Positions 32,466-44,547 are shown, counted from the first letter of the stretch. The stretch: 51,187 nucleotides of DNA from Halococcus hamelinensis 100A6 (GCF_000336675.1 NZ_AOMB01000033.1:1-51187); one strand, 5' to 3'. Translations and numbers: made by a program. The notes: generated by a model from the sequence alone, not told the origin.

Positions 32466-32556
32466 GGCGGGATGATTCGACCGCTCGCCGTGACGAGATG
32501 CCGAGATGACCGGGAGAAACGAGCCCCCTATGTGCGATGGGTGACGATCCTCCCGC

Positions 32557-33567
32557 ATGTCTCCGTCATCGAAATCGACCGTCGACCTCCGGGAACTCTA
32601 CGAGCGAGCGAGGGCAGGTCGGTACGGCTTCTTCGCGAGCAACGTCACCCAGTTCGACGTCCTCGTCGGGTTGCTCGACGGGAGCGCCGCCGCCGACGCC
32701 GACCTCGTCGTCCAGGCGAGCCGCGAGGAGGCGGCCTTCTTCGGTGGCGGTGACCCCACGGTTGGGCTGGAGGTCCTCGGTGCAGCCCTCGACTCGCTCG
32801 CCGACCGATACGGTATCGAGGCGTTCTGCAACGTCGACCACGTTCACCTCCCCGAGGAGCAGTCGTTCCTCGAGACCTGCCTCGACTCGGACGTCCCCGA
32901 TTCGGTGATGGTCGACGCCTCCGACCGGCCGTTCGAGGAGAACGTCGAACTGACTGCGGAAACCGTCGAGCGGGCCGACGACGACGTGCTCGTCGAGGCC
33001 GAACTCGGTCGCATCGCGGGCGTCGAGGGCAGCACCGAGACGGCCGCCGACGAGGCCTTCTACACCGACCCCGGGACCGCCGTCGAGTTCGTCGAACGAA
33101 CCGGATGCGACCTGCTCGCGGTCTCGATCGGCACCCAGCACGGCGTCGCGTCCGACCGCGACCTCGACGTTCGACCGGACCTCGCCGTGGCGATCGACGA
33201 GGCCCTCGTCGAGGCGGGGGAAGAGACCTTTCTCGTCGTGCACGGGGCCTCCGGCCTCGCCGACGAGCGGATCGAGGCGTTGCTCGACGCCGGGGTCTGC
33301 AAGTTCAACAAGAACACCCGCTACCAGTACGAGTTCGCCCGAACCGCCGCCGACTTCTACCACGACCACGCTGACGCCATCCGCCCGCCCGAGGGCGTTC
33401 CCGACGACCGCTCGAACTTCTTCGCCGGGAGCGACTGGTCGCCGGAGAAGGCGTCCTTCCACCCACACGTCGTCTCGAACGCCGCTCGCAACCGGATCGC
33501 GACGGTGATGAGCGAGCTCTGTGAGGTGACGGGCAACGCCGGCGAGACGATGGCCTCGGGGCGATGA
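32557..33567 (+). CDS. Class II (zinc) aldolase, fructose-bisphosphate/tagatose-bisphosphate family
   Basis: A 336-residue class II aldolase that should split a ketose phosphate, giving dihydroxyacetone phosphate and an aldehyde. Catalytic and zinc residues are kept: NVDHVHL (Asp94, His95), VEAELGRIAGVEG (Glu148), SIGTQHG (His195) and VVHGASGL (His229), with the phosphate loop KFNKNT. The start ATG has CCTATGTG about 30 bases upstream as a probable promoter. The stop overlaps the kinase start (ATGA), so this is gene 1 of a three-gene operon. Haloarchaea use a related class II enzyme in fructose breakdown, but here the partner is an FGGY kinase, so the substrate may be another ketose. Confidence 0.87.
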   Translation: MSPSSKSTVDLRELYERARAGRYGFFASNVTQFDVLVGLLDGSAAADADLVVQASREEAAFFGGGDPTVGLEVLGAALDSLADRYGIEAFCNVDHVHLPEEQSFLETCLDSDVPDSVMVDASDRPFEENVELTAETVERADDDVLVEAELGRIAGVEGSTETAADEAFYTDPGTAVEFVERTGCDLLAVSIGTQHGVASDRDLDVRPDLAVAIDEALVEAGEETFLVVHGASGLADERIEALLDAGVCKFNKNTRYQYEFARTAADFYHDHADAIRPPEGVPDDRSNFFAGSDWSPEKASFHPHVVSNAARNRIATVMSELCEVTGNAGETMASGR

Positions 33568-35084
33568 CCGAGGGCGATCCCGTCCTGATCGGGGTCGATG
33601 CCGGCCTGACCAACGTCACGGTGACGGCGTTCGACGGAACCGGCGACGACCTCGCGACCGCTTCCGAACCGACGCCGACGGTCGAGACGCCGCCCGACCG
33701 GGACGAACAGGACCACGACCGGCTCTGGGAGACCGTCGGCGAGACGGTCGCGGCGGTAATCGAAGCGCTCGAGGTCACGCCGTCGGCGGTCGCCGCGGTC
33801 GGCGTCGCCGGCCACGGCCACGGTCTCTACGGCCTCGACGCGGACGGAACGGCCGTCTGCGGGATCAAGTCGACCGATAGCCGAGCGATCGGAGTCCTCG
33901 AAGAACACCGTTCGGACGTGGCCGACGCGGTCGCCGACCGCCTCGGCTGGCAGCCGTTCGGTGCCGACCCGCTGAGCCTGCTCGTCTGGCTCGCCGAGCA
34001 CGACCCGGCGACGTACGACCGGCTCGATACGGTACTCTTTGCGAAGGACGTGCTCACCCACCGGCTCACCGGCGAGCGGTCGACGGACCCCACGGAGGGG
34101 AGCGTCTTCTACGGCCCCGATGCCGAGTACGACAGGGAGGTCTTCGAGCTGCTCGACATCCCGGCGGCCTTCGAGACACTGCCGCCGGTGACTTCGAGCA
34201 CCGATGCCTGCGGCACGGTGACGAGCGAAGCCGCGGCCCGGACCGGACTCCCCGAGGGAACGCCCGTCGCAACGGGATTCCACGACGTCGCGGCGTGTGC
34301 GCTCGGTGCCGGTCTCACCGCACCCGGCGACGGACTCGCGATCCTCGGCACGTGGGGCCAGAGCGTCGCGGTGCTCGACTCGCCGGCGGACGGGAGCGGC
34401 GGCCTCCCACGGCGCTACCTCGACGGCTGGATCCGGTACAAGGGACTCAGGGCCGGCGCAGCCTGTGTCGAGTGGTTCACCGAGAACTACGGGGCCGACT
34501 GGCATCGGGAGGCCCGCGAACGCGATGTCGACCCACACACGGTATACGAGGAGACGATCGCCGACGTTCCCCCCGGTTCGAACGGGGTCGTCTTCCACCC
34601 GTTCCTCAACGGTTCGACGGACGACCCGACCAGTACGGGCGGGTTCTTCGGGCTCCGGATGGACCACACCGCAGCGCAGATGCTCCGGTCGATCTACGAG
34701 GGGGTCGCGGTCGCCCAGACCGACGCGCTCTCGGAGCTCGCGCCGGAACTCGACTCGATCCGTCTCACGGGTGGCGGTGCGCGGAGCGACGAGTGGGCGC
34801 GGATGTTCGCCGACATCGCCGACCGGCCGGTCACGGTGCCCGCGGAGCGCGAGACCGGGGCGCTCGGGGCGGCGCTGTGCGGTGGCGTCGCCGCCGGCGT
34901 CTACCCCGACGCCGAGCGGGCGGTCGCGCGGACCGTCGAACCGGCCCGCCGGTACGAACCGAACCCGGACGTCGAGGCGACCTATCGAACGCTCGAAACG
35001 GCGTTCTCGCAGGCCGCCGACGGGATGCGCGCGCCGTGGGAAACGCTCAAGTCGCTTAGGGAGATGTCCCAACACGAAGAATGA
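33564..35084 (+). CDS. FGGY-family carbohydrate kinase (xylulokinase/LyxK-like)
   Basis: A 506-residue sugar kinase of the FGGY family. The N-terminal half starts VLIGVDAGLTNVTVTAFD with the phosphate-binding Asp-Gly loop. A substrate block GHGHGLYGLDADG stands near residue 87. The C-terminal half has LGTWGQSVAV and the adenosine-binding LTGGGARSDEWARMFADI. By eye it looks closest to L-xylulokinase (LyxK)-type enzymes, so a pentulose or related ketose is likely, but polyols cannot be excluded. It overlaps both neighbours by ATGA junctions, so kinase, aldolase and dehydrogenase are probably made in fixed ratio. Confidence 0.85.
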   Translation: MTEGDPVLIGVDAGLTNVTVTAFDGTGDDLATASEPTPTVETPPDRDEQDHDRLWETVGETVAAVIEALEVTPSAVAAVGVAGHGHGLYGLDADGTAVCGIKSTDSRAIGVLEEHRSDVADAVADRLGWQPFGADPLSLLVWLAEHDPATYDRLDTVLFAKDVLTHRLTGERSTDPTEGSVFYGPDAEYDREVFELLDIPAAFETLPPVTSSTDACGTVTSEAAARTGLPEGTPVATGFHDVAACALGAGLTAPGDGLAILGTWGQSVAVLDSPADGSGGLPRRYLDGWIRYKGLRAGAACVEWFTENYGADWHREARERDVDPHTVYEETIADVPPGSNGVVFHPFLNGSTDDPTSTGGFFGLRMDHTAAQMLRSIYEGVAVAQTDALSELAPELDSIRLTGGGARSDEWARMFADIADRPVTVPAERETGALGAALCGGVAAGVYPDAERAVARTVEPARRYEPNPDVEATYRTLETAFSQAADGMRAPWETLKSLREMSQHEE

Positions 35085-36112
35085 ACGTGTTGCTCTGCGG
35101 TGACCCACAACAGCCGAGCGAGTACATGTACGAGGCGCTCGGCCATCTCGAGGACCGAGGTCTGACGTTCGAGCGGATGGACTGGATGGGCGAGGCCTCC
35201 CCCGGCGAGTTCCGAAACGTGACGATGGACATGGAGTCGCTCGGCCCCGGGAGCTACGACACCGACGCCATCGCCGAGCGGCTCGACGGTATCGACGCGC
35301 TCGTCGTCCACAAGGCACCGGTCTCCCGCGAACTCATCGAGAGCGGCGAGTCGCTCTCGGTCGTCGGGGCCGCCCGCGGCGGGACGGAGAACGTCGATAT
35401 CGACGCGGCACACGAGAACGATATCACGGTCTTGCACGCGCCCGGCCGTAATCGCGACGCCGTCGCCGACTACGCGGTGTCGATGCTGCTCTCGCGGGTG
35501 CGCGAGATCCCGTTCAACCACGCCGACCTCTCGACTGGCGAGTGGAGCCAGGTGTTCGACCCGGACCGACTCCCCCCGGATATGCGAACCGCGACGGTCG
35601 GGATCGTCGGCTTCGGCCACATCGGCCGTGGCGTCGCCCGTCGGCTGGCGGGCTTCGAGACCGAGTGTCTGGTCTACGACCCGTTCGTCGCGGACGAGGA
35701 GATCCGGGAAGCCGGCTCCGAACCGGCCGACCTGCCGGACCTGCTCGCCGAGGCCGACGCCGTGACCCTCCACGTCCGACTCTCGGAGGATACGGCTGAG
35801 ATGATCGGCGAGGAAGAGTTCGCACGGATGAACTCCGAGGCGTTTCTGGTCAACACCGCGCGGGGCGGGTTGGTCGACGAGGACGCGCTCGTCGACGCCC
35901 TCGCGGCGGACGAGATCGGCGGCGCGGCGCTCGATGTCTTCCAGCAGGAGCCGCTGCCGGACGACCACCCGCTGCTCGACTTCGAGAACGTCGTCCTGAC
36001 GCCACACGTCGCCGGCTCGACCCGCGATGCCGTGCTCGGCGGACCGCGGATCATCGCGACGCAGCTCGCGGCCTACCTCGACGACGAGACGCCCGAGCAC
36101 GTCGTACAGTGA
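35081..36112 (+). CDS. D-isomer-specific 2-hydroxyacid dehydrogenase
   Basis: A 343-residue NAD-dependent dehydrogenase of the D-2-hydroxyacid family, which includes phosphoglycerate dehydrogenase and glyoxylate/hydroxypyruvate reductase. The cofactor loop is GFGHIG (177-182) with an acidic residue at 200 (VYDP) favouring NAD(H). The catalytic triad is Arg261 (NTARGG), Glu290 (FQQEP) and His309 (LTPHVAGS). The family's C-terminal regulatory ACT domain is absent. It is last in the aldolase-kinase operon (ATGA overlap). It could oxidise a sugar acid, or reduce the C2 or C3 acid left after aldol cleavage. Confidence 0.86.
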   Translation: MNVLLCGDPQQPSEYMYEALGHLEDRGLTFERMDWMGEASPGEFRNVTMDMESLGPGSYDTDAIAERLDGIDALVVHKAPVSRELIESGESLSVVGAARGGTENVDIDAAHENDITVLHAPGRNRDAVADYAVSMLLSRVREIPFNHADLSTGEWSQVFDPDRLPPDMRTATVGIVGFGHIGRGVARRLAGFETECLVYDPFVADEEIREAGSEPADLPDLLAEADAVTLHVRLSEDTAEMIGEEEFARMNSEAFLVNTARGGLVDEDALVDALAADEIGGAALDVFQQEPLPDDHPLLDFENVVLTPHVAGSTRDAVLGGPRIIATQLAAYLDDETPEHVVQ

Positions 36113-36279
36113 ACTGACCGGTGTCGCGGCGACCTAACGGCTCGTCGTTCTCCGCGAATATCGGCTACCAGCGGCTGACTGTCGCCGAGAAGAGCCCCCG
36201 GTGCTGCTGACGACCGGGTTCGCCTCTCCGTGGGGTCGAGAACCCACCCACGACGGGCTGAACGGCCCGACTGCGTTTC

Positions 36280-37176
36280 TCAGTCGACCCTCGCCTCGTC
36301 GCCCGCGAGGTCCTCGATTATCTGCATAACTCCTGAATTATCGTCGCGGCCGCGGCCGGTGGTCTCCATCGCCTTGTAGAGTTCGTGGGCCACCGAGGTC
36401 TGGGGCATCGGCGAACCGAACGCCTCGCCGGCGTCGGTGGCGATGCGAAGGTCCTTGTACTGATAGGAGGCGAAGAAGCCGGGGTCGAACTGTCCCTGAA
36501 TCATGTTCGGTGCGCGGTTGTCGAGCGTCCAGCAGCCCGCCGCGCCGCCCGAGATCGCCTCGACGACCGCTTCGAGGTCCGCACCCGCCTGGTGGGCGAA
36601 GACCAGCGCCTCGCTCACCCCGACCATCTGGGCGGCGACCACGATCTGATTGCAGGCTTTCGTCGTCTGGCCCGCGCCGTTCGGCCCACAGTGGGTCACG
36701 GTGCTGCCCATCACCTCGAAGAGCTCCCGACAGTCCTCGAAGACCGATTCGTCCCCGCCGACCATGATCGAGAGCGTGCCCTCGATCGCGCCCTCCTCGC
36801 CACCGGAGATAGGCGCGTCGAGCATCGCGGCTCCCCGCTCGGCGATCGCCTCGGCGAGGTCCTCGGTGACCGTCGGGGAGATGGTCGACATGTCCACGAC
36901 GACCATCCCCTCTTCCAGCCCGTCGAGCACGCCCTCGTCCCCACGGACGATCTCCTCGACGACCGGCGAGTCGGGGAGACAGGTGATCACGACGTCCGAG
37001 CGCTCGGCGACCTCTTTGGGTGAGGTCGCCCCCTCACCGCCGGAGGCTTCGAGCTCCTCGACCGACTCGTCGGAGCGGTTGTGCCCGACGACGTCGTAGC
37101 CCGCGTCGAGGAGGTTCTCCGCCATCGGTCCGCCCATGATGCCGAGTCCGACGAATCCGACCGTTTCGGTGGCCAT
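36280..37176 (-). CDS. garR: 2-hydroxy-3-oxopropionate (tartronate semialdehyde) reductase-like beta-hydroxyacid dehydrogenase
   Basis: A 298-residue enzyme of the 3-hydroxyisobutyrate dehydrogenase family. The dinucleotide loop is GFVGLGIMGGPMAENL. The substrate motif DAPISGGEEGAIEGTLSIMVGG follows. The catalytic lysine is Lys173 in GAGQTTKACNQI. The set of motifs fits GarR, which reduces tartronate semialdehyde to D-glycerate, but 3-hydroxyisobutyrate or succinic semialdehyde activity is possible. ATG 37176 is chosen because it starts nine residues before the loop. It faces the aldolase operon and may belong to the same pathway. Confidence 0.85.
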   Translation of the reverse strand: MATETVGFVGLGIMGGPMAENLLDAGYDVVGHNRSDESVEELEASGGEGATSPKEVAERSDVVITCLPDSPVVEEIVRGDEGVLDGLEEGMVVVDMSTISPTVTEDLAEAIAERGAAMLDAPISGGEEGAIEGTLSIMVGGDESVFEDCRELFEVMGSTVTHCGPNGAGQTTKACNQIVVAAQMVGVSEALVFAHQAGADLEAVVEAISGGAAGCWTLDNRAPNMIQGQFDPGFFASYQYKDLRIATDAGEAFGSPMPQTSVAHELYKAMETTGRGRDDNSGVMQIIEDLAGDEARVD

Positions 37177-37341: not shown

Positions 37342-37734
37342 TCAGTAATCGTCTACTTCGATGATCTCCTTCGTCTCTTTGTGAGTTAGGTCACCATCTC
37401 CAGAGACGACGGAAGCAGAGAGTTCACGTCCTACTGCAGCGACGAGAGCATCAACCGCTGTGAGATTCGGTCCCAGGGGACCGATCTCGTCAGCGACCTC
37501 CGCCGCGATGACGGCTGTCCGTTGGGAAACTTCGACGATCTCGCCCCACGCAAGCTCTTGGCGTGCTTTCGAGATGTTCGTCTCAGCGTTACTATGCACA
37601 GTGCCAAGCAGGTATTCTGTCTAGACTGGTGCTGGAATGATGAACACCTCTTCTTCGTGCTCTTCGAGATACTCCCCAGTTGCATCGACCCCATCCCCGT
37701 AGTCGATCAGAAACGAGGTGTCGAGAACCTTCAT
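37342..37734 (-). pseudogene. vapC: VapC-type PIN toxin interrupted by an in-frame TAG
   Basis: Read on the reverse strand from ATG 37734, the frame gives MKVLDTSFLIDYGDGVDATG and on through 37 codons, then TAG (37623-37621). It then continues in the same frame with TEYLLGTVHSNAETN... to a natural stop at 37342. With that codon read through, the protein has about 130 residues and all four PIN acidic positions (LDTS, TEYLLG, AVDALV, SGDGDL). A single-base change from a Tyr codon would explain the TAG. The toxin, an RNase acting on tRNA or rRNA in this family, is therefore probably dead. A later ATG at 37599 could make a fragment without the first acidic residue. The ATG overlaps the antitoxin stop. 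Confidence 0.8.
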
Positions 37735-37982
37735 TCGATATCGCGACTCTCGGCGATACGCTCGATGCGTTCGGCCGACTCTCGCTTTCCCCGATCGCGT
37801 ACCTCCTGAATGCGCTCCCCTCTATCCGTTCCTTCGAAGGCCCCAAATCCCGCAAAGAGGTCCCGGTCCTCGGTCAGTAGTCGCTCGAGTACGTCGTTGA
37901 ACGATTCGCCCTCTCGCCGCCGGTTCTCCAATTCGGTTTTCACGACCGAACTGACCCTGATCTGTTCGTCGGCGGTGCTCAT
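37731..37982 (-). CDS. vapB: VapB-type antitoxin
   Basis: An 83-residue protein with an N-terminal DNA-binding and dimerisation part (STADEQIRVSSVVKTELENRRREGESFNDVLERLL), typical of AbrB- or RHH-type haloarchaeal VapB antitoxins. A charged, flexible C-terminal half (GTDRGERIQEVRDRGKRESAERIERI) follows, which would wrap around the toxin. The frame is intact. Its stop overlaps the toxin ATG (ATGA). ATG 37982 is preferred; the longer frame upstream has unrelated composition. It may still repress its own promoter although the toxin is broken. Confidence 0.8.
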   Translation of the reverse strand: MSTADEQIRVSSVVKTELENRRREGESFNDVLERLLTEDRDLFAGFGAFEGTDRGERIQEVRDRGKRESAERIERIAESRDIE

Positions 37983-38419: not shown

Positions 38420-39547
38420 TTAGAACCGATCGATGCCGAACGGTTCGAGCACGTCCGGGTCGTCGCCGCACACCGCGCCCGCGACGAGTTTTCCCGAGTA
38501 CGGTCCGAGCTGGAGACCCGACGGTCCGTGGCCGGTCGCGACGAACGCCCCCTCGACATCCGGCACCGCGCCGAGCACCGGTAGCCCGTCGGCCGAAACC
38601 GGGCGAAGACCGACCCGCACCTCCCGGACGGACGCCTCGGCGAGCCCCGGCGCGACCCGCGTCGCCTCGTCGAGCACTTCCTGGAGCCCCGCGACAGTGC
38701 TGTGGGGCGCGAACCCCGTCCCGGTCTCGCGGGTCGCGCCGACCGCGACCCGGCCGTCGTCCCACGAGACGAGGTAGTGGCCGCGAAACGGGCTAACGAT
38801 CGGCCAGTCGGTCGTGTCCGCATCGACGTCGAGGTGGACGATCTGACCGCGCTGGGGTTCGATCGGGATCGAGACCCCCAGTTGGTCGCCGAACGACGCC
38901 GACCACGCGCCGCCGGCGACCACGACCCGCTCCGTCTCGATCCGGTCGCCGTCGACGACGACCGCCTCGATCGAGCCCCCATCCACGACGAGCCGTTCCG
39001 CGTTCGCGTCCTTCATTTCGAGGCCACGGGCCTCGCTCGCCCGTCGGAGCGCACCCTCGAACCGCCGTCCGTCGACCCGCGCGGCGTCGTCGTAGCGAAA
39101 CGCGCGCCGGACATCGGCCAGCGGGGGAAACGCCGTCCGGGCTTCCTCGGTCGTGAGTTCGGCCAGCGATCCCTCCCTCGGCGGGCCGGCCGCCGCCTCC
39201 CGTTCGCGAACCTCGGCGAGGGTCTCGTCGGACCTGTCGGCCTCGGTCTCGTCGATCGCGACCCGGAGGAGGTCGCGCTCAGCGTAGCCGTGCGGACCGT
39301 CTTGGTCGATTTCGAGCGCCGCCACGAGGTCGTCGTAGTAGGCCACCGCCTCGGCGGCGAACCCGAACCACGGCTCGCCGCGCGAACTCGTCGCCGCCGA
39401 GAGGATCCCCGCACCGGCGTCGGTCGCCCGGCCCTCGTCCCGACGGTCGACGAGCAGCGTTTCGACCCCATCCTGGGCGAGATGGTACGCCGTCGAGGAG
39501 CCGACGATGCCCCCGCCGACCACCACCGCTTCGTAGCGCTCGTGCAT
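38420..39547 (-). CDS. FAD-dependent oxidoreductase of the D-amino acid/glycine oxidase (DAO) family
   Basis: A 375-residue flavoenzyme. It begins YEAVVVGGGIVGSSTAYHLAQ, the ADP-binding loop of FAD, with LLVDRRD as the ribose-binding strand end. Later come VVVAGGAWSASFGDQLG, IPIEPQRGQIVHLDVD and the C-terminal VRVGLRPVSADGLPVLGAV followed by ATGHGPSGLQLGPYSGKLVA, all typical of the DAO family (sarcosine oxidase, glycine oxidase, D-amino acid dehydrogenase). The substrate is likely an amino acid or N-methyl amino acid. The ATG at 39547 places the FAD loop at the usual position. It is divergent from the formate dehydrogenase operon. Confidence 0.86.
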   Translation of the reverse strand: MHERYEAVVVGGGIVGSSTAYHLAQDGVETLLVDRRDEGRATDAGAGILSAATSSRGEPWFGFAAEAVAYYDDLVAALEIDQDGPHGYAERDLLRVAIDETEADRSDETLAEVREREAAAGPPREGSLAELTTEEARTAFPPLADVRRAFRYDDAARVDGRRFEGALRRASEARGLEMKDANAERLVVDGGSIEAVVVDGDRIETERVVVAGGAWSASFGDQLGVSIPIEPQRGQIVHLDVDADTTDWPIVSPFRGHYLVSWDDGRVAVGATRETGTGFAPHSTVAGLQEVLDEATRVAPGLAEASVREVRVGLRPVSADGLPVLGAVPDVEGAFVATGHGPSGLQLGPYSGKLVAGAVCGDDPDVLEPFGIDRF

Positions 39548-39658
39548 ACTCCAGGGGTGTGTGGTCGCCGACTCAACGTATCGATCCCGGCGGCTGCTGC
39601 CGGTTTTCGCCCGGTCGAGCGGTCTAGATCTCCTGGCCCGAGGTTTGCAGGCGATACA

Positions 39659-39665
39659 TCTATAG
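39659..39665 (+). promoter_or_regulatory. TATA box of the formate dehydrogenase operon
   Basis: TCTATAG, within CATCTATAGGCG, lies 21-27 bases before ATG 39686. A leaderless transcript is therefore likely. Confidence 0.6.
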
Positions 39666-39685
39666 GCGGCGAGGGACTCCCTACC

Positions 39686-41218
39686 ATGATGGTTGATGAT
39701 GGTGTCTGCGGGCGGGATCCCGCCGTTCGCGTCGCCGGGGCGGGGAACGACTCGCGGAGCGACGAACTCCTCGCCGCCGGACGCGACCCCGAGACGGGCG
39801 TCGCGGTAGCGGCGGTGGGGTCGACCGGGATCGCCGGTCTCGAACCGCTCATGCTGGCGACGCTCGACGGCGAGACCGCCTTCTTCTCCGAGATGGATAC
39901 CGACGGCGTTCGAGCACTCGTCGAGGCGCTCGACGAGGGCACGCTGCCGACCGACGACGCGATGGCGGTCGTCGAACACGAGCCCGAGACGGCGTCGCTG
40001 CCGCTCCCCGACGAGGGACCGCTCGGGGTCGGCGAGCGGGCCGTGCTAGCGGGCTGTGGCTGGACGGTGCCGACGAGCACTGCCGACTACCGCGACGGGG
40101 AGTTCCTCGCGTCCGAAACGACCGCCGACGTAATGGGGCAGCTCCGAGAGGAAGGGCTGCGCGGGCGCGGGCGCGGCGACGTCGCCACCGATACGCCGGT
40201 CGTCGAGGAGTGGGAGACCGTGGCCGAAGCCGACGGCGACGCGGTGGTGGTCGTGAACGCCAACGAGGCCGACACCGACGCCGAGGCGGACCGCCTCCTG
40301 CTCGAAAGTGCCCCGTTCTCCGTGCTCGACCCGGCGTTCGCCGCCGCCCGCGCGGTGGACGCCACCGACCTCGTGATATACGTCAACGAATCCGAGCGTC
40401 TGGCCCGCGAGCGGGCGAAGACGGCGGCGCAAACCCTCGACGAGGCCGTCGACAGGCTTTCGACGCGGATCGTCGCCGGCCCGGACGAGTACAAAGCCGG
40501 CGAACCCACGGTCGCCCTCGAAGCCATCGAGGGCAACCACCGGCTCGAATCCCGGCGCACTCCACCCGGCCCCAGTGAGTACGGCGTCGACGGTCGTCCA
40601 ACGCTGGTCCACACGCCGCGGACGTTCGCCCAAGTCGGGCGCGTTCTCGCTGGCGACGACCTGGGTGGCGTGGCCTCGGACCCCGGAACGCGACTGATCA
40701 CGGTCACGGGCGACGTCACGTCCCCGGCGACGGTGGAACTCTCGACGGACGACGGCCTCGACTCGGCCCTGTCGGCCGTCGAGGCGGGTGGACGAAGTCT
40801 GGCCTGCGTCGGCGGGGTCTTCGGCGGGCTGACGCGCACGCTCGACGTGCCCGCGAACGCGTCCGGGCTGACCGGCGCACAGCTCGGCACCAACGGCGTG
40901 GTCGAACTCCTCGGCGAGTCGACCTGCCCGGTGGCGTTCGCGGGCGAACGCGCGAGGTTCGCGAAGGAGGAGAACTGCGGGCGGTGCGTCCCCGGCCGCG
41001 AGGGCTCGAACCAGCTTGTGAACCTCCTCCGGGACGTCTACGAGGGCGAGTACAAGGAGGGGATGCTCCGCGAACTCGCCCGGGTGATGCGCGAGACCAG
41101 CACCTGTGAACTCGGGCGCGACGCACCCCGACCCGTGACGACCGCGATGGACGGCTTCGGTGCGGAGTTCGCCGCCCACGCCGAGGGCCGCTGTCCGACC
41201 GGAGCCTGTGACCGATGA
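39686..41218 (+). CDS. NuoF-like subunit of formate dehydrogenase, with degenerate cofactor motifs
   Basis: A 510-residue homologue of the NADH-oxidising NuoF/HoxF subunit. The layout is kept: an N-terminal extension, the NADH/FMN domain (about 150-300), the SLBB region, and the C-terminal Fe-S domain. The key motifs are eroded. The Gly-rich GLRGRGGAGFPTG region reads GLRGRGRGDVATD (157-169). The FMN loop reads NANEADTD (191-198). The cluster motif CGxCxPC reads CGRCVPGR, so Cys431 and Cys434 stay but the third Cys is Gly437; the fourth, Cys474, is present. It ends with an extra CPTGAC pair. It likely passes electrons or serves as a scaffold in a formate dehydrogenase. ATG 39686 is supported by the TATA box. 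Confidence 0.82.
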   Translation: MMVDDGVCGRDPAVRVAGAGNDSRSDELLAAGRDPETGVAVAAVGSTGIAGLEPLMLATLDGETAFFSEMDTDGVRALVEALDEGTLPTDDAMAVVEHEPETASLPLPDEGPLGVGERAVLAGCGWTVPTSTADYRDGEFLASETTADVMGQLREEGLRGRGRGDVATDTPVVEEWETVAEADGDAVVVVNANEADTDAEADRLLLESAPFSVLDPAFAAARAVDATDLVIYVNESERLARERAKTAAQTLDEAVDRLSTRIVAGPDEYKAGEPTVALEAIEGNHRLESRRTPPGPSEYGVDGRPTLVHTPRTFAQVGRVLAGDDLGGVASDPGTRLITVTGDVTSPATVELSTDDGLDSALSAVEAGGRSLACVGGVFGGLTRTLDVPANASGLTGAQLGTNGVVELLGESTCPVAFAGERARFAKEENCGRCVPGREGSNQLVNLLRDVYEGEYKEGMLRELARVMRETSTCELGRDAPRPVTTAMDGFGAEFAAHAEGRCPTGACDR

Positions 41219-41277
41219 CGAGCGACCACGCGACCGACGAGCCGTTCGATGCGACCGACGACGAGGACCTATCATGA
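41215..41277 (+). CDS. Possible 20-residue linker peptide between the first two formate dehydrogenase genes
   Basis: A short acidic frame (MTSDHATDEPFDATDDEDLS). Its ATG overlaps the stop of the NuoF-like gene and its TGA overlaps the ATG of the next gene, so there is an ATGA junction at both ends. The acidic composition is like the haloarchaeal proteome. It may couple translation between the neighbours; it could also be a remnant or chance. Confidence 0.4.
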   Translation: MTSDHATDEPFDATDDEDLS

Positions 41278-42203
41278 GTACGGACCCGATCTGGGAGAAC
41301 TCCCACACGACCGGACCCGACGTACCGTTCACCGAGGACATCGCCCCGGGAACCGCGAACGACCCCGCGGCAGGCGCGACCGAGGCGGCGACGGTGACCG
41401 TCGACGGCGAGCCCGTCGCGGTCGAGGAAGGGGAAACCCTGCTCGACGCGTGCGAACGCGTCGAGACCGAGGGCGAGGTGCTCGCGCTCTGTTCGTACGA
41501 CGAGGAGGAGAAGATCGGCCCGCGGAGCGAGTGTCGAACCTGTATGGTCGACACCGAGGAGCACGGCGTCGTGCCCTCGTGTAGCTTCCCGCCGGAGGAG
41601 GGCATGACCGTCACCACCGACACCGCCGCGGCGAGCGAGGCGCGCGACGTCAACCTCGACCTCCTGCTCTCGAATCACAACCTGCTGTGTACGACCTGCG
41701 GCCAGAACGGCCGGTGTGACCTCCAGGACGTCTCGATCCAGAACGAGGTCGAGGAGCCCAGGTACGGCGTGATGCACGACCGGAGCGAACTCGTGCCGCT
41801 CGACGATTCCTCGCCGTTCATCCAGATCGACCGGAACAAGTGTATCCTCTGTAACCGCTGTGTCGAGGCCTGCAACGACGTCCAGGTCGAGGGCGTCCTC
41901 CGGATGGAGGGCTCGGGCGAGGACACCCGTATCGGCTTCCAGAACGGCGCGGAGACGATGATGGAGTCGACCTGCGTCTCCTGTGGTCACTGCGCGACGG
42001 TGTGCCCGACGGGCGCGCTGGTCGAACAGGGGCTCGTGGACTCGACGACGCTTCCAGTCCCCGGTTTCACCCACAAGAACTCCGCCGAGGAGATCATCGG
42101 CGAGGACTACGAACACCAGCCGGGCCAGATGACGCCGATGAAACGCCGGGAGGACACCGAGAACGAGCCGGCGGCCACCTTCGAGTCCGTGGGGGACGAC
42201 TGA
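41274..42203 (+). CDS. Formate dehydrogenase iron-sulfur subunit (NuoG N-terminal-like ferredoxin domains)
   Basis: A 309-residue electron-transfer subunit. Residues about 45-120 form a [2Fe-2S] domain (LCSYDEEEKIGPRSECRTCMVD, then PSC). Then comes the His/Cys motif HNLLCTTCGQNGRCDLQD for an N5-like [4Fe-4S] cluster. Two more [4Fe-4S] motifs follow: KCILCNRCVEACNDVQ and STCVSCGHCATVCPTGAL. This is the N-terminal module of NuoG/FdhA-type proteins, here a separate polypeptide that wires the catalytic subunit to the NuoF-like subunit. Its start lies in an ATGA overlap with the small linker frame. The catalytic gene begins one base after its stop. Confidence 0.88.
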   Translation: MSTDPIWENSHTTGPDVPFTEDIAPGTANDPAAGATEAATVTVDGEPVAVEEGETLLDACERVETEGEVLALCSYDEEEKIGPRSECRTCMVDTEEHGVVPSCSFPPEEGMTVTTDTAAASEARDVNLDLLLSNHNLLCTTCGQNGRCDLQDVSIQNEVEEPRYGVMHDRSELVPLDDSSPFIQIDRNKCILCNRCVEACNDVQVEGVLRMEGSGEDTRIGFQNGAETMMESTCVSCGHCATVCPTGALVEQGLVDSTTLPVPGFTHKNSAEEIIGEDYEHQPGQMTPMKRREDTENEPAATFESVGDD

Positions 42204-42204
42204 G

Positions 42205-44547
42205 ATGAGCCAGGACACATCCGACACCGAGAAGGAAGGCGTCGCGGGCTTCATGGCCCGCGCGAAGGAACAGGCTGGCGAGGGAGCAAAGGAGGCCGCG
42301 AACGACAAGGTCGTCAGACCGTTCGAGCACGCGGTCTCGGGCTTCATGGGGGACGCGGTCTCGGAGGGCCGGCTGTTCTCGATCGCCGACGCGGTCGCCG
42401 ACTACCAGGAGAACGACATCGACGTCACCGACACGACCTGTGAGTACTGCGCGGTCGGCTGCCGGTTCGACGTGCTCACGAAGGACGGCGAGTTCCTCGG
42501 GACCAGACCCCGCCCGGAGAAAGCACCCATCAACGGGATCTCGACCTGCGTCAAAGGGAAGTTCGCCCACGGCTACACCCACAGCGACGACCGACTGACC
42601 CAGCCGTTGGTCAAGGAGGACGGCGAGTTCCGGGAGGCCTCGTGGGACGAGGCGCTCACGCGGGTCGCGGAGGGTCTCGGCGGGGTCAAGGAGGAGTACG
42701 GCCCCGACGGGCTCGGTTTCGTGGCCTCCTCGAAGGCGACCAACGAGGACAACTACGCGATGCAGCGGTTCGCACGCGAGGTCATCGGCACCAACAACAT
42801 CGACAACTGCAACCGGCTCTGTCACTCCTCGACCGTCTCCGGCCTCTCATCGACGTTCGGCTTCGGCGCGGCCTCCGTCGGGATGGAGGCGCTCGAAGAG
42901 ACCGACTGTTACCTCCTGACCGGCTCGAACACCACCGAGGCCCACCCGGTGCTCGCGACCCGGATCAAACAGAACGTCAAGGACAACGACGCCGACCTCC
43001 TCGTGTTCGACCCGCGGAAGACCCAGATCGCCGAGTACGCAGACCAGTACACCCAGATCAATGCAGGTTACGACAACACCTGGCTCAACGGGCTCGTCAG
43101 GTACATCCTGAAGAACGACCTCGAGGACCGGGAGTTCATCGAGGAGCGGACGACGGGCATCGAGCAGGTCGAGGAGAGCGTCGAGAAGTTCACGCCGGAG
43201 TTCGTCGAGGAGCACGCGGGTGTCCCGCCGGAGGAACTCGTGAGCGCGGCCGAGACCATCACGGAGGCCGACTCCTGTGTGTTCGGCTGGACGCTCGGGA
43301 TGACCGAGCACGCCAAAGGCACCGAGAACATCTACGCCATCGCGAACCTCGCGCTGGTGACCGGACACATCGGCAACCCGAAATCGGGCGTCTCGCCGTT
43401 CCGCGGCCAGAACAACGTCCAGGGCGGCGGCGGCGACATGGGGCCGCTCCCGAACAACTTCCCGGGCTACCAGCCGGTGACCAACGAGGAACACCGGGAG
43501 AAGTTCGCCGAGGCCTACGGGATGGACGTCGAGGAGATGCCCGACAAGGAGGGCTACCGCCTCACGGACATGTTCCTCACGGACGACATCCACGGGATGT
43601 TCATCCAGGGCGAGAACTCGCTGGTCTCGGAGCCGAACATCGCCCACGCACGCGAGACGATCGAGAACCTCGACTTCTTCGCGGTGCAGGACATCTTCCT
43701 GACCGAGACCGCCGAGCTCGCCGACGTAGTCCTGCCGGCGACCGCCTCGCTGGAGTCCAACGGAACGTACACCGCCTCGACGCGCCACGTCCAGCTGGTG
43801 AAGCGGGCGGTCGACCCCATCGGCAACGCCAAACCCGACTGGCGGATCACCAAGGCGCTCGCGGCGAAGTTCGGCTACGAGTGGGAGTACGACCACCCGA
43901 GCGACATCATGGACGAGATCAACGACCTCGTCCCGATCTACGGTGGCATCAGCCACGAGCGCCTCGAAGCCCTCGGGGACGGCGAAGGGCTCCAGTGGCC
44001 CGTCTGGGACATGGACCATCCCGGCACCCCCTACACCTACGAGGAGGAGTTCCAGACCAACGACGGGCTGGCGCACATGCACCCCGCCGATACGGTGGAT
44101 CCCTCGGAGACGCCGGACGACGACTACCCGCTGGTGATGACCTCGGGGCGGGTCCTCTATCAGTACCACACCGGGACGATGACGTTCCGCGACGAGGGGG
44201 TCATGTCCTACTCAGACAAGAGCTTCGTCGAGGTCCACCCCGAGACCGCCGAGGAGTACGGGATCGCGGACGAGGAGGTCGTCGAACTCACCTCCCGGCA
44301 CGGCAAGACGGAGATGCTGGTCCAGGTCACCACCCGACCGAACCCCGGCGAAGTGTTCGTCCCGATGCACTACCTCGAAGGCGGCGCGAACAACCTCACG
44401 AAGGAGGACCCGCTCGACGGCGCGGCACGCACGCCCGAGTACAAGATCACCGACGTCCAGATCACGGGAACCGAGAAGGAGGCCGACGACCTCCAGGGGA
44501 GCGTGCCGCGTGGCGAGGCGAGACGACCCGCGAGCTCGGACGACTGA
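42205..44547 (+). CDS. Formate dehydrogenase catalytic subunit (molybdopterin oxidoreductase, Cys type)
   Basis: A 780-residue catalytic subunit of the DMSO-reductase superfamily that would oxidise formate to CO2. After an unusual 75-residue N-terminal extension, it has the [4Fe-4S] ligands Cys79, Cys82, Cys86 and Cys115. The active-site residue is Cys206 in NRLCHSSTVSGL, so it is not a selenoprotein here. Other blocks are GSNTTEAHPV and FRGQNNVQGGGGDMG, then QDIFLTETAELADVVLPATAS, and the C-terminal barrel with RVLYQYHTGTMTF for the molybdopterin guanine dinucleotide. The start is one base after the previous stop. MoaA and MobA genes nearby provide the cofactor. Confidence 0.87.
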   Translation: MSQDTSDTEKEGVAGFMARAKEQAGEGAKEAANDKVVRPFEHAVSGFMGDAVSEGRLFSIADAVADYQENDIDVTDTTCEYCAVGCRFDVLTKDGEFLGTRPRPEKAPINGISTCVKGKFAHGYTHSDDRLTQPLVKEDGEFREASWDEALTRVAEGLGGVKEEYGPDGLGFVASSKATNEDNYAMQRFAREVIGTNNIDNCNRLCHSSTVSGLSSTFGFGAASVGMEALEETDCYLLTGSNTTEAHPVLATRIKQNVKDNDADLLVFDPRKTQIAEYADQYTQINAGYDNTWLNGLVRYILKNDLEDREFIEERTTGIEQVEESVEKFTPEFVEEHAGVPPEELVSAAETITEADSCVFGWTLGMTEHAKGTENIYAIANLALVTGHIGNPKSGVSPFRGQNNVQGGGGDMGPLPNNFPGYQPVTNEEHREKFAEAYGMDVEEMPDKEGYRLTDMFLTDDIHGMFIQGENSLVSEPNIAHARETIENLDFFAVQDIFLTETAELADVVLPATASLESNGTYTASTRHVQLVKRAVDPIGNAKPDWRITKALAAKFGYEWEYDHPSDIMDEINDLVPIYGGISHERLEALGDGEGLQWPVWDMDHPGTPYTYEEEFQTNDGLAHMHPADTVDPSETPDDDYPLVMTSGRVLYQYHTGTMTFRDEGVMSYSDKSFVEVHPETAEEYGIADEEVVELTSRHGKTEMLVQVTTRPNPGEVFVPMHYLEGGANNLTKEDPLDGAARTPEYKITDVQITGTEKEADDLQGSVPRGEARRPASSDD

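Follow-up and report, generated by a model that had tools for sequence, protein, structure and literature searches.

The genome of Halococcus hamelinensis 100A6 contains genes for an aldolase, an FGGY-family kinase and a D-2-hydroxyacid dehydrogenase that overlap one another and face the gene for a GarR-type reductase. The question raised by this locus is whether the genes encode a catabolic route of their own, or belong to the sugar pathways that their database names (fructose-bisphosphate aldolase, generic FGGY kinase) imply. It lies at 32557–37176 of the window, the whole 51,187 nucleotide stretch of DNA that was analysed (GCF_000336675.1, NZ_AOMB01000033.1:1-51187). The comparisons presented here suggest that the first three genes, referred to as the triad, are probably a self-contained, horizontally mobile catabolic operon for a kinase, an aldolase yielding dihydroxyacetone phosphate (DHAP) and a small-acid oxidoreductase. 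The features of the locus are:

32466–32556 (+): gap of 91 bases 5' of the operon, with a weak TATA-like sequence, CCTATGTG, about 30 bases ahead of the aldolase ATG
32557–33567 (+): class II aldolase (PF01116) of the triad clade, metal and base ligands kept; predicted ketose-1-phosphate (DHAP-releasing) aldolase
33564–33567 (+): ATGA overlap of the aldolase stop and the kinase start
33564–35084 (+): FGGY-family carbohydrate kinase (PF00370/PF02782) with the private invariant signature GHGHG / PFxAD / GTWGQS
35081–35084 (+): ATGA overlap of the kinase stop and the dehydrogenase start
35081–36112 (+): D-2-hydroxyacid dehydrogenase (PF00389/PF02826); Arg261, Glu290 and His309 invariant in the triad set
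36280–37176 (-): GarR-type (tartronate semialdehyde / beta-hydroxyacid) reductase (PF03446/PF14833); convergent, optional neighbour outside the cassette

Conservation and mobility of the triad

The kinase was used as the query against 391 Halobacteria genomes, with approximately 45% identity or more defining an orthologue. Orthologues are present in 25 genomes, that of the window included, which belong to several families and often carry the gene on plasmids. All remaining full-length FGGY proteins are at most 42% identical to the kinase, leaving a clean gap; genome G201 has a 100-residue fragment at 46% identity. The dehydrogenase gene adjoins the kinase orthologue in all 25 genomes; 24 of them have all three triad genes, with the gene order unchanged and on one strand. 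The exception, G270 (locus L049), has no aldolase gene; its kinase gene is truncated and interrupted by a stop, its dehydrogenase gene is intact, and the locus is a remnant of a triad. The triad is also in the metagenome-assembled genome QS_4_69_31 and on plasmids of Haladaptatus, Halarchaeum, Halalkalicoccus jeotgali and Natronococcus sp. CG52.

The flanks of the triad vary between genomes. A MacB/FtsX-type ABC transporter and an NAD-type 6-phosphogluconate dehydrogenase are encoded 5' of the window triad, a placement shared only with its closest relative, G250. An association retained in 24 of 25 genomes within otherwise differing neighbourhoods exceeds chance. The pairwise protein distance matrices of the three triad members are also correlated (Mantel r 0.957, 0.942 and 0.947). 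From the conserved order, varying flanks and correlated distances it therefore appears that the three genes move and evolve together, which supports the interpretation of the triad as a fixed, horizontally mobile cassette and a single functional unit. The initial annotation had taken the overlapping genes to be one unit; both ATGA junctions are confirmed and the fixed order and correlated distances bear this out. The weak TATA-like sequence of the window is also kept in G250, and several other triad loci have clearer TATA-like boxes about 30 bases ahead of the aldolase start. These boxes are consistent with the triad having its own promoter, weakly so for the window.

The reductase

The reductase gene does face the operon, being convergent on the (-) strand to the (+) strand triad. 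Because of this orientation, and as its stop (36280) is 168 bases away from that of the dehydrogenase gene (36112), it is outside the operon. The protein scores 336.6 bits against the GarR model TIGR01505, just below the cut-off of 340.75, and its nearest solved structure, 1vpd, is a GarR. Orthologues are found in 61 of the 391 genomes, 50 of which have no triad. Among these 50 are six further members of the family of H. hamelinensis, five of which also share its genus, and the GarR flanks in the same-genus genomes share only GarR with the window. The gene adjoins the triad in just 3 of the 25 loci (the window, G250 and Natronococcus CG52), although GarR is more frequent in triad genomes (11/25) than in others (50/366; p = 4e-4, uncorrected for relatedness). 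Expected co-occurrence of all four genes thus holds for the triad and not for the reductase, and the proposal that GarR provides the end step of a four-gene route is not sustained. GarR was rejected as a fourth cassette member on this distribution and is an optional helper at most.

The triad aldolase and fructose-bisphosphate aldolase

Residues D94, H95, E147, E149, H195, H229 and N251, assigned as catalytic or metal positions against the Giardia residues (PMC6692403), are invariant in 43 aldolase sequences. The metal ligands and catalytic base of a class II (metal-dependent) DHAP aldolase are therefore kept. At 519 bits the aldolase also passes the cut-off of 500 for NF041368, the model for haloarchaeal class II fructose-bisphosphate aldolase (FBA), and some genomes have no class II FBA besides it. 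The locus could on these grounds be an ordinary fructose or Embden-Meyerhof-Parnas module, with a plain FBA and a hexose kinase. This is improbable. While the triad aldolases share the Pfam family, the metal and base ligands and 47–52% identity with canonical copies of the Haloferax volcanii-type FBA, they form their own clade, separate from the stand-alone canonical enzymes with 100/100 support in a tree without a named characterised FBA sequence. Both kinds coexist in eight genomes (G122, G152, G190, G237, G258, G266, G322 and G358), the triad aldolase is obligately coupled to the FGGY kinase and the 2-hydroxyacid dehydrogenase, and the cassette has no 1-phosphofructokinase.

The window genome has a single PF01116 gene and, in addition, a class I FBA-like gene; in haloarchaea, class I FBA can take the place of the class II enzyme (PMC11519228). 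No match to the triad aldolase was found in six same-genus genomes, and most genomes of the genus carry neither the triad nor a canonical class II aldolase. Judging from this gene content, the absence of matches and the presence of the class I FBA-like gene mean that the housekeeping FBA of the genus must be an enzyme other than the triad aldolase. Together these comparisons support a paralogue distinct from canonical haloarchaeal FBA and predicted to release DHAP.

The proteins that NF041368 recognises fall into two clades, and those of one clade are invariably encoded in the triad cassette (tested for L131, L134, L124, L135, L037, L047, L053, L058, L051 and L048). Since both clades pass, the model was rejected as a discriminator between triad and canonical aldolases. 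The FBA annotation of the triad-clade proteins is probably over-specific.

The kinase and its relatives

Both FGGY domains of the kinase are above the Pfam cut-offs, at 137 and 90 bits, yet the protein is under every NCBIfam cut-off. The best model is XylB (TIGR01312; 228 against a cut-off of 380 bits), and the autoinducer-2 kinase LsrK (NF008187) gives 170 against 528 bits. The triad kinases are monophyletic (100/100). Two motifs of the substrate site, GHGHG and GTWGQS, are invariant among them and unlike those of the glycerol kinase GlpK and all other sampled FGGY proteins; the specificity-determining positions given by Zhang et al. (PMC3245297) served as the reference for locating them. This invariance suggests that one substrate may be common to all triads.

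With XylB as the best model, the kinase could be a xylulokinase feeding the pentose phosphate pathway, the aldolase and dehydrogenase being unrelated to it. The score is well under the cut-off, however, the signature differs from that of the other sampled FGGY kinases, and the coupling to the aldolase is fixed. No full-length transketolase was found in the window genome, and on this absence the reading was rejected as very improbable.

The sister kinases of the triad clade are FGGY proteins of Rubrobacter, Klebsiella and Rhizobium, in a part of the tree with long branches. Their genes adjoin those of class I aldolases (PF01791 / class I FBA) and, in Rubrobacter and Klebsiella, that of a 2-hydroxyacid dehydrogenase too. 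More distant FGGY kinases of Shinella, Paracoccus and Pseudosulfitobacter adjoin a 2-hydroxyacid dehydrogenase and a FucA-type (PF00596) aldolase. The clusters of Shinella, Paracoccus, Rubrobacter and Klebsiella thus resemble the triad in having the same three functions side by side, and differ in their aldolase families (PF00596 or PF01791) and in their kinases, which are 27–37% identical to that of the triad.

Two of the more distant loci, L137 and L138 on Paracoccus and Pseudosulfitobacter plasmids, have an unusual combination in which the same run also holds three CoA transferases and an acetolactate-synthase-like gene. A second haloarchaeal FGGY group (L061 and L064, also L060, L063 and L066) is often divergent to another 2-hydroxyacid dehydrogenase gene; beside it, in L061 and L064, is a gene that by eye is inositol-monophosphatase-like.

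The dehydrogenase

The dehydrogenase falls between phosphoglycerate dehydrogenase (TIGR01327; 241 against a cut-off of 454 bits) and glyoxylate reductase (NF009714; 198 against 455 bits) and is under all cut-offs. Membership of the D-2-hydroxyacid dehydrogenase superfamily is indicated by both Pfam domains and by R261, E290 and H309, which we take to be the expected catalytic residues of these enzymes. Because these three residues are invariant in the triad set, the enzyme should be active towards a small acid with a 2-oxo or 2-hydroxy group.

Proposed pathway

In the proposed pathway, the FGGY kinase would phosphorylate a ketose or keto sugar acid at the hydroxymethyl group beside the carbonyl. 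The metal-dependent aldolase would then cleave the phosphorylated product to DHAP and a two- or three-carbon aldehyde, and the D-2-hydroxyacid dehydrogenase would carry out an NAD-linked step on a small acid (glyoxylate/glycolate or hydroxypyruvate/glycerate). DHAP would enter the triose-phosphate pool and glycerate could be taken up by the glycerate 2-kinase, which is present in the window genome. We infer from sequence comparisons which reactions take place and in what order, which substrate enters and which of its carbons is phosphorylated. The initial annotation had proposed phosphorylation of a ketose, cleavage to DHAP and processing of the small fragment; the unit, the pairing of a kinase with a DHAP-type aldolase and the separation from the fructose route stand, and the reductase as a member does not.

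The strongest comparative argument for a kinase-then-aldolase logic is that a kinase and a 2-hydroxyacid dehydrogenase occur repeatedly with a DHAP-type aldolase, which is from one of three unrelated families; the bacterial side of this comparison covers a few loci hand-picked from search matches and is no systematic survey. This choice of loci weighs against the proposed pathway, as do several other points. FGGY kinases phosphorylate either end of their substrates and the carbon is not readable from sequence. The other tested triad aldolases, at 516–561 bits, all exceed the NF041368 cut-off, with which cleavage of fructose 1,6-bisphosphate is compatible. Group-specific changes in the triad aldolases include Asn253 for Asp, which was rejected as proof of altered specificity, the FBA of Bacillus anthracis (3q94) having Asn too. 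The substrate assignment of the dehydrogenase is likewise a guess from its family.

Candidate substrates

The substrate may be a keto sugar acid or a neutral ketose, with about the same likelihood for either. In the first case, a keto-aldonate or keto-uronate (for example a hex-5-ulosonate) would yield DHAP and tartronate semialdehyde, or glyoxylate from a C5 acid, and the dehydrogenase or GarR would reduce this product to D-glycerate or glycolate. This is put forward tentatively. Sugar-acid genes are neighbours of the triad in about half of the loci (UxaA, UxuA, galactonate-dehydratase type MR/MLE enzymes, FAH, DUF1537 kinase and an OiaX-like RuBisCO-like protein); further neighbours are IclR and GlpR regulators. 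A gene of nickel-pincer isomerase group 22 is within 7 kb of the triad in 7 of the 25 loci (L056, L057, L059, L041, L039, L043 and L046), and the group is present in 23/25 triad genomes against 156/366 others (p = 8e-7, uncorrected for relatedness). The superfamily epimerises 2-hydroxy acids (PMC7583248, PMC11770544); no reported substrate for group 22 was found in the literature. The enrichment of GarR and the glycerate kinase of the window genome are also in favour of a sugar acid. A parallel would be the IolC/IolJ branch of inositol breakdown, where a kinase and a class II PF01116 aldolase lead to DHAP and a semialdehyde acid, as proposed for the triad; IolC is a PfkB kinase, whereas the triad kinase is of the FGGY family.

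Uronate isomerase UxaC is present in only 7/25 triad genomes, against 40/366 others (p = 0.02, uncorrected for relatedness). It was rejected as a general feeder, so uronate isomerisation is not a general source of a sugar-acid substrate. The co-occurrences may also mirror sugar-rich lifestyles, and the tests take no account of relatedness. In addition, a sugar ABC transporter is encoded directly upstream of the triad in L003 and L047, together with, by inspection, AKR-like and Gfo/Idh-like genes, and these would suit neutral sugars as well.

A neutral substrate would be a pentulose, tetrulose or deoxyketose phosphorylated at C1 and cleaved to DHAP and glycolaldehyde or lactaldehyde. The aldehyde would be converted to glycolate or lactate by an aldehyde dehydrogenase encoded elsewhere, and the triad dehydrogenase would then oxidise this acid. 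Besides the two transporter loci, the fuculokinase- and rhamnulokinase-type logic of FGGY kinases and the haloarchaeal ribulose-1-phosphate aldolase precedent would fit this possible, equally tentative alternative. The cassette has no aldehyde dehydrogenase, however, the triad dehydrogenase cannot use a free aldehyde, and the neighbourhoods are mostly of sugar-acid genes.

The sugar-acid pathway in its most specific form is rather unlikely to be right in every part: a keto sugar acid, possibly supplied through the group 22 epimerase, would be phosphorylated by an FGGY kinase of a new specificity class and cleaved by a repurposed FBA, and the linked dehydrogenase would reduce the tartronate semialdehyde or glyoxylate that is released along with DHAP.

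In Natronococcus sp. CG52 (L107, 12608–13867) a RuBisCO-like protein is encoded directly 3' of the triad; OiaX is the nearest model, at 461 bits against a cut-off of 700.

Relation to known routes

The initial premise that haloarchaeal pentose routes are oxidative and need no kinase is too strong to be general. For Halorhabdus utahensis, a route through xylose isomerase, xylulokinase and the pentose phosphate pathway has been predicted (PMC3102087), Haloarcula has a ketohexokinase for fructose (PMC11519228), and in a further published haloarchaeal route, the non-carboxylating pentose bisphosphate pathway, a ribulose-1-phosphate aldolase leads to DHAP (PMC9700705). The last of these resembles the proposed pathway in that a ketose-1-phosphate is cleaved to DHAP. 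It differs in that its aldolase is FucA-type (PF00596) rather than PF01116, and in having a ribose-1-phosphate kinase and a ribulose bisphosphate phosphatase and no 2-hydroxyacid dehydrogenase.

No description of the triad cassette was found in the open-access literature, subscription papers being outside the search. The suggestion of an undescribed route is therefore upheld for this particular cassette, as far as searched, and not for the kinase-aldolase logic leading to DHAP, which is already known. Database names would in this case conceal a whole mobile pathway. If the proposal is true, a phosphorylative, DHAP-yielding route would be present in archaea thought to degrade sugars mostly by oxidative or Entner-Doudoroff-type pathways; the FGGY kinases would gain a new specificity class, and a class II aldolase paralogue would have a role outside glycolysis. 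It would also provide a handle on the uncharacterised nickel-pincer isomerase group.

Other features of the window

Beyond the reductase gene, a VapB-type antitoxin (PF02697) is encoded at 37734–37982 (-), followed by an 85 amino acid open reading frame at 37342–37599 (-) that by eye resembles the C-terminal part of a VapC-type protein; this is possibly a decayed toxin-antitoxin pair. A DAO-family oxidoreductase, similar to the glycine oxidase ThiO with a score under the cut-off, is at 38420–39520 (-). Consecutive NuoF-like, NuoG-like ferredoxin and molybdopterin oxidoreductase genes at 39602–44547 (+) resemble an NAD-linked formate dehydrogenase.

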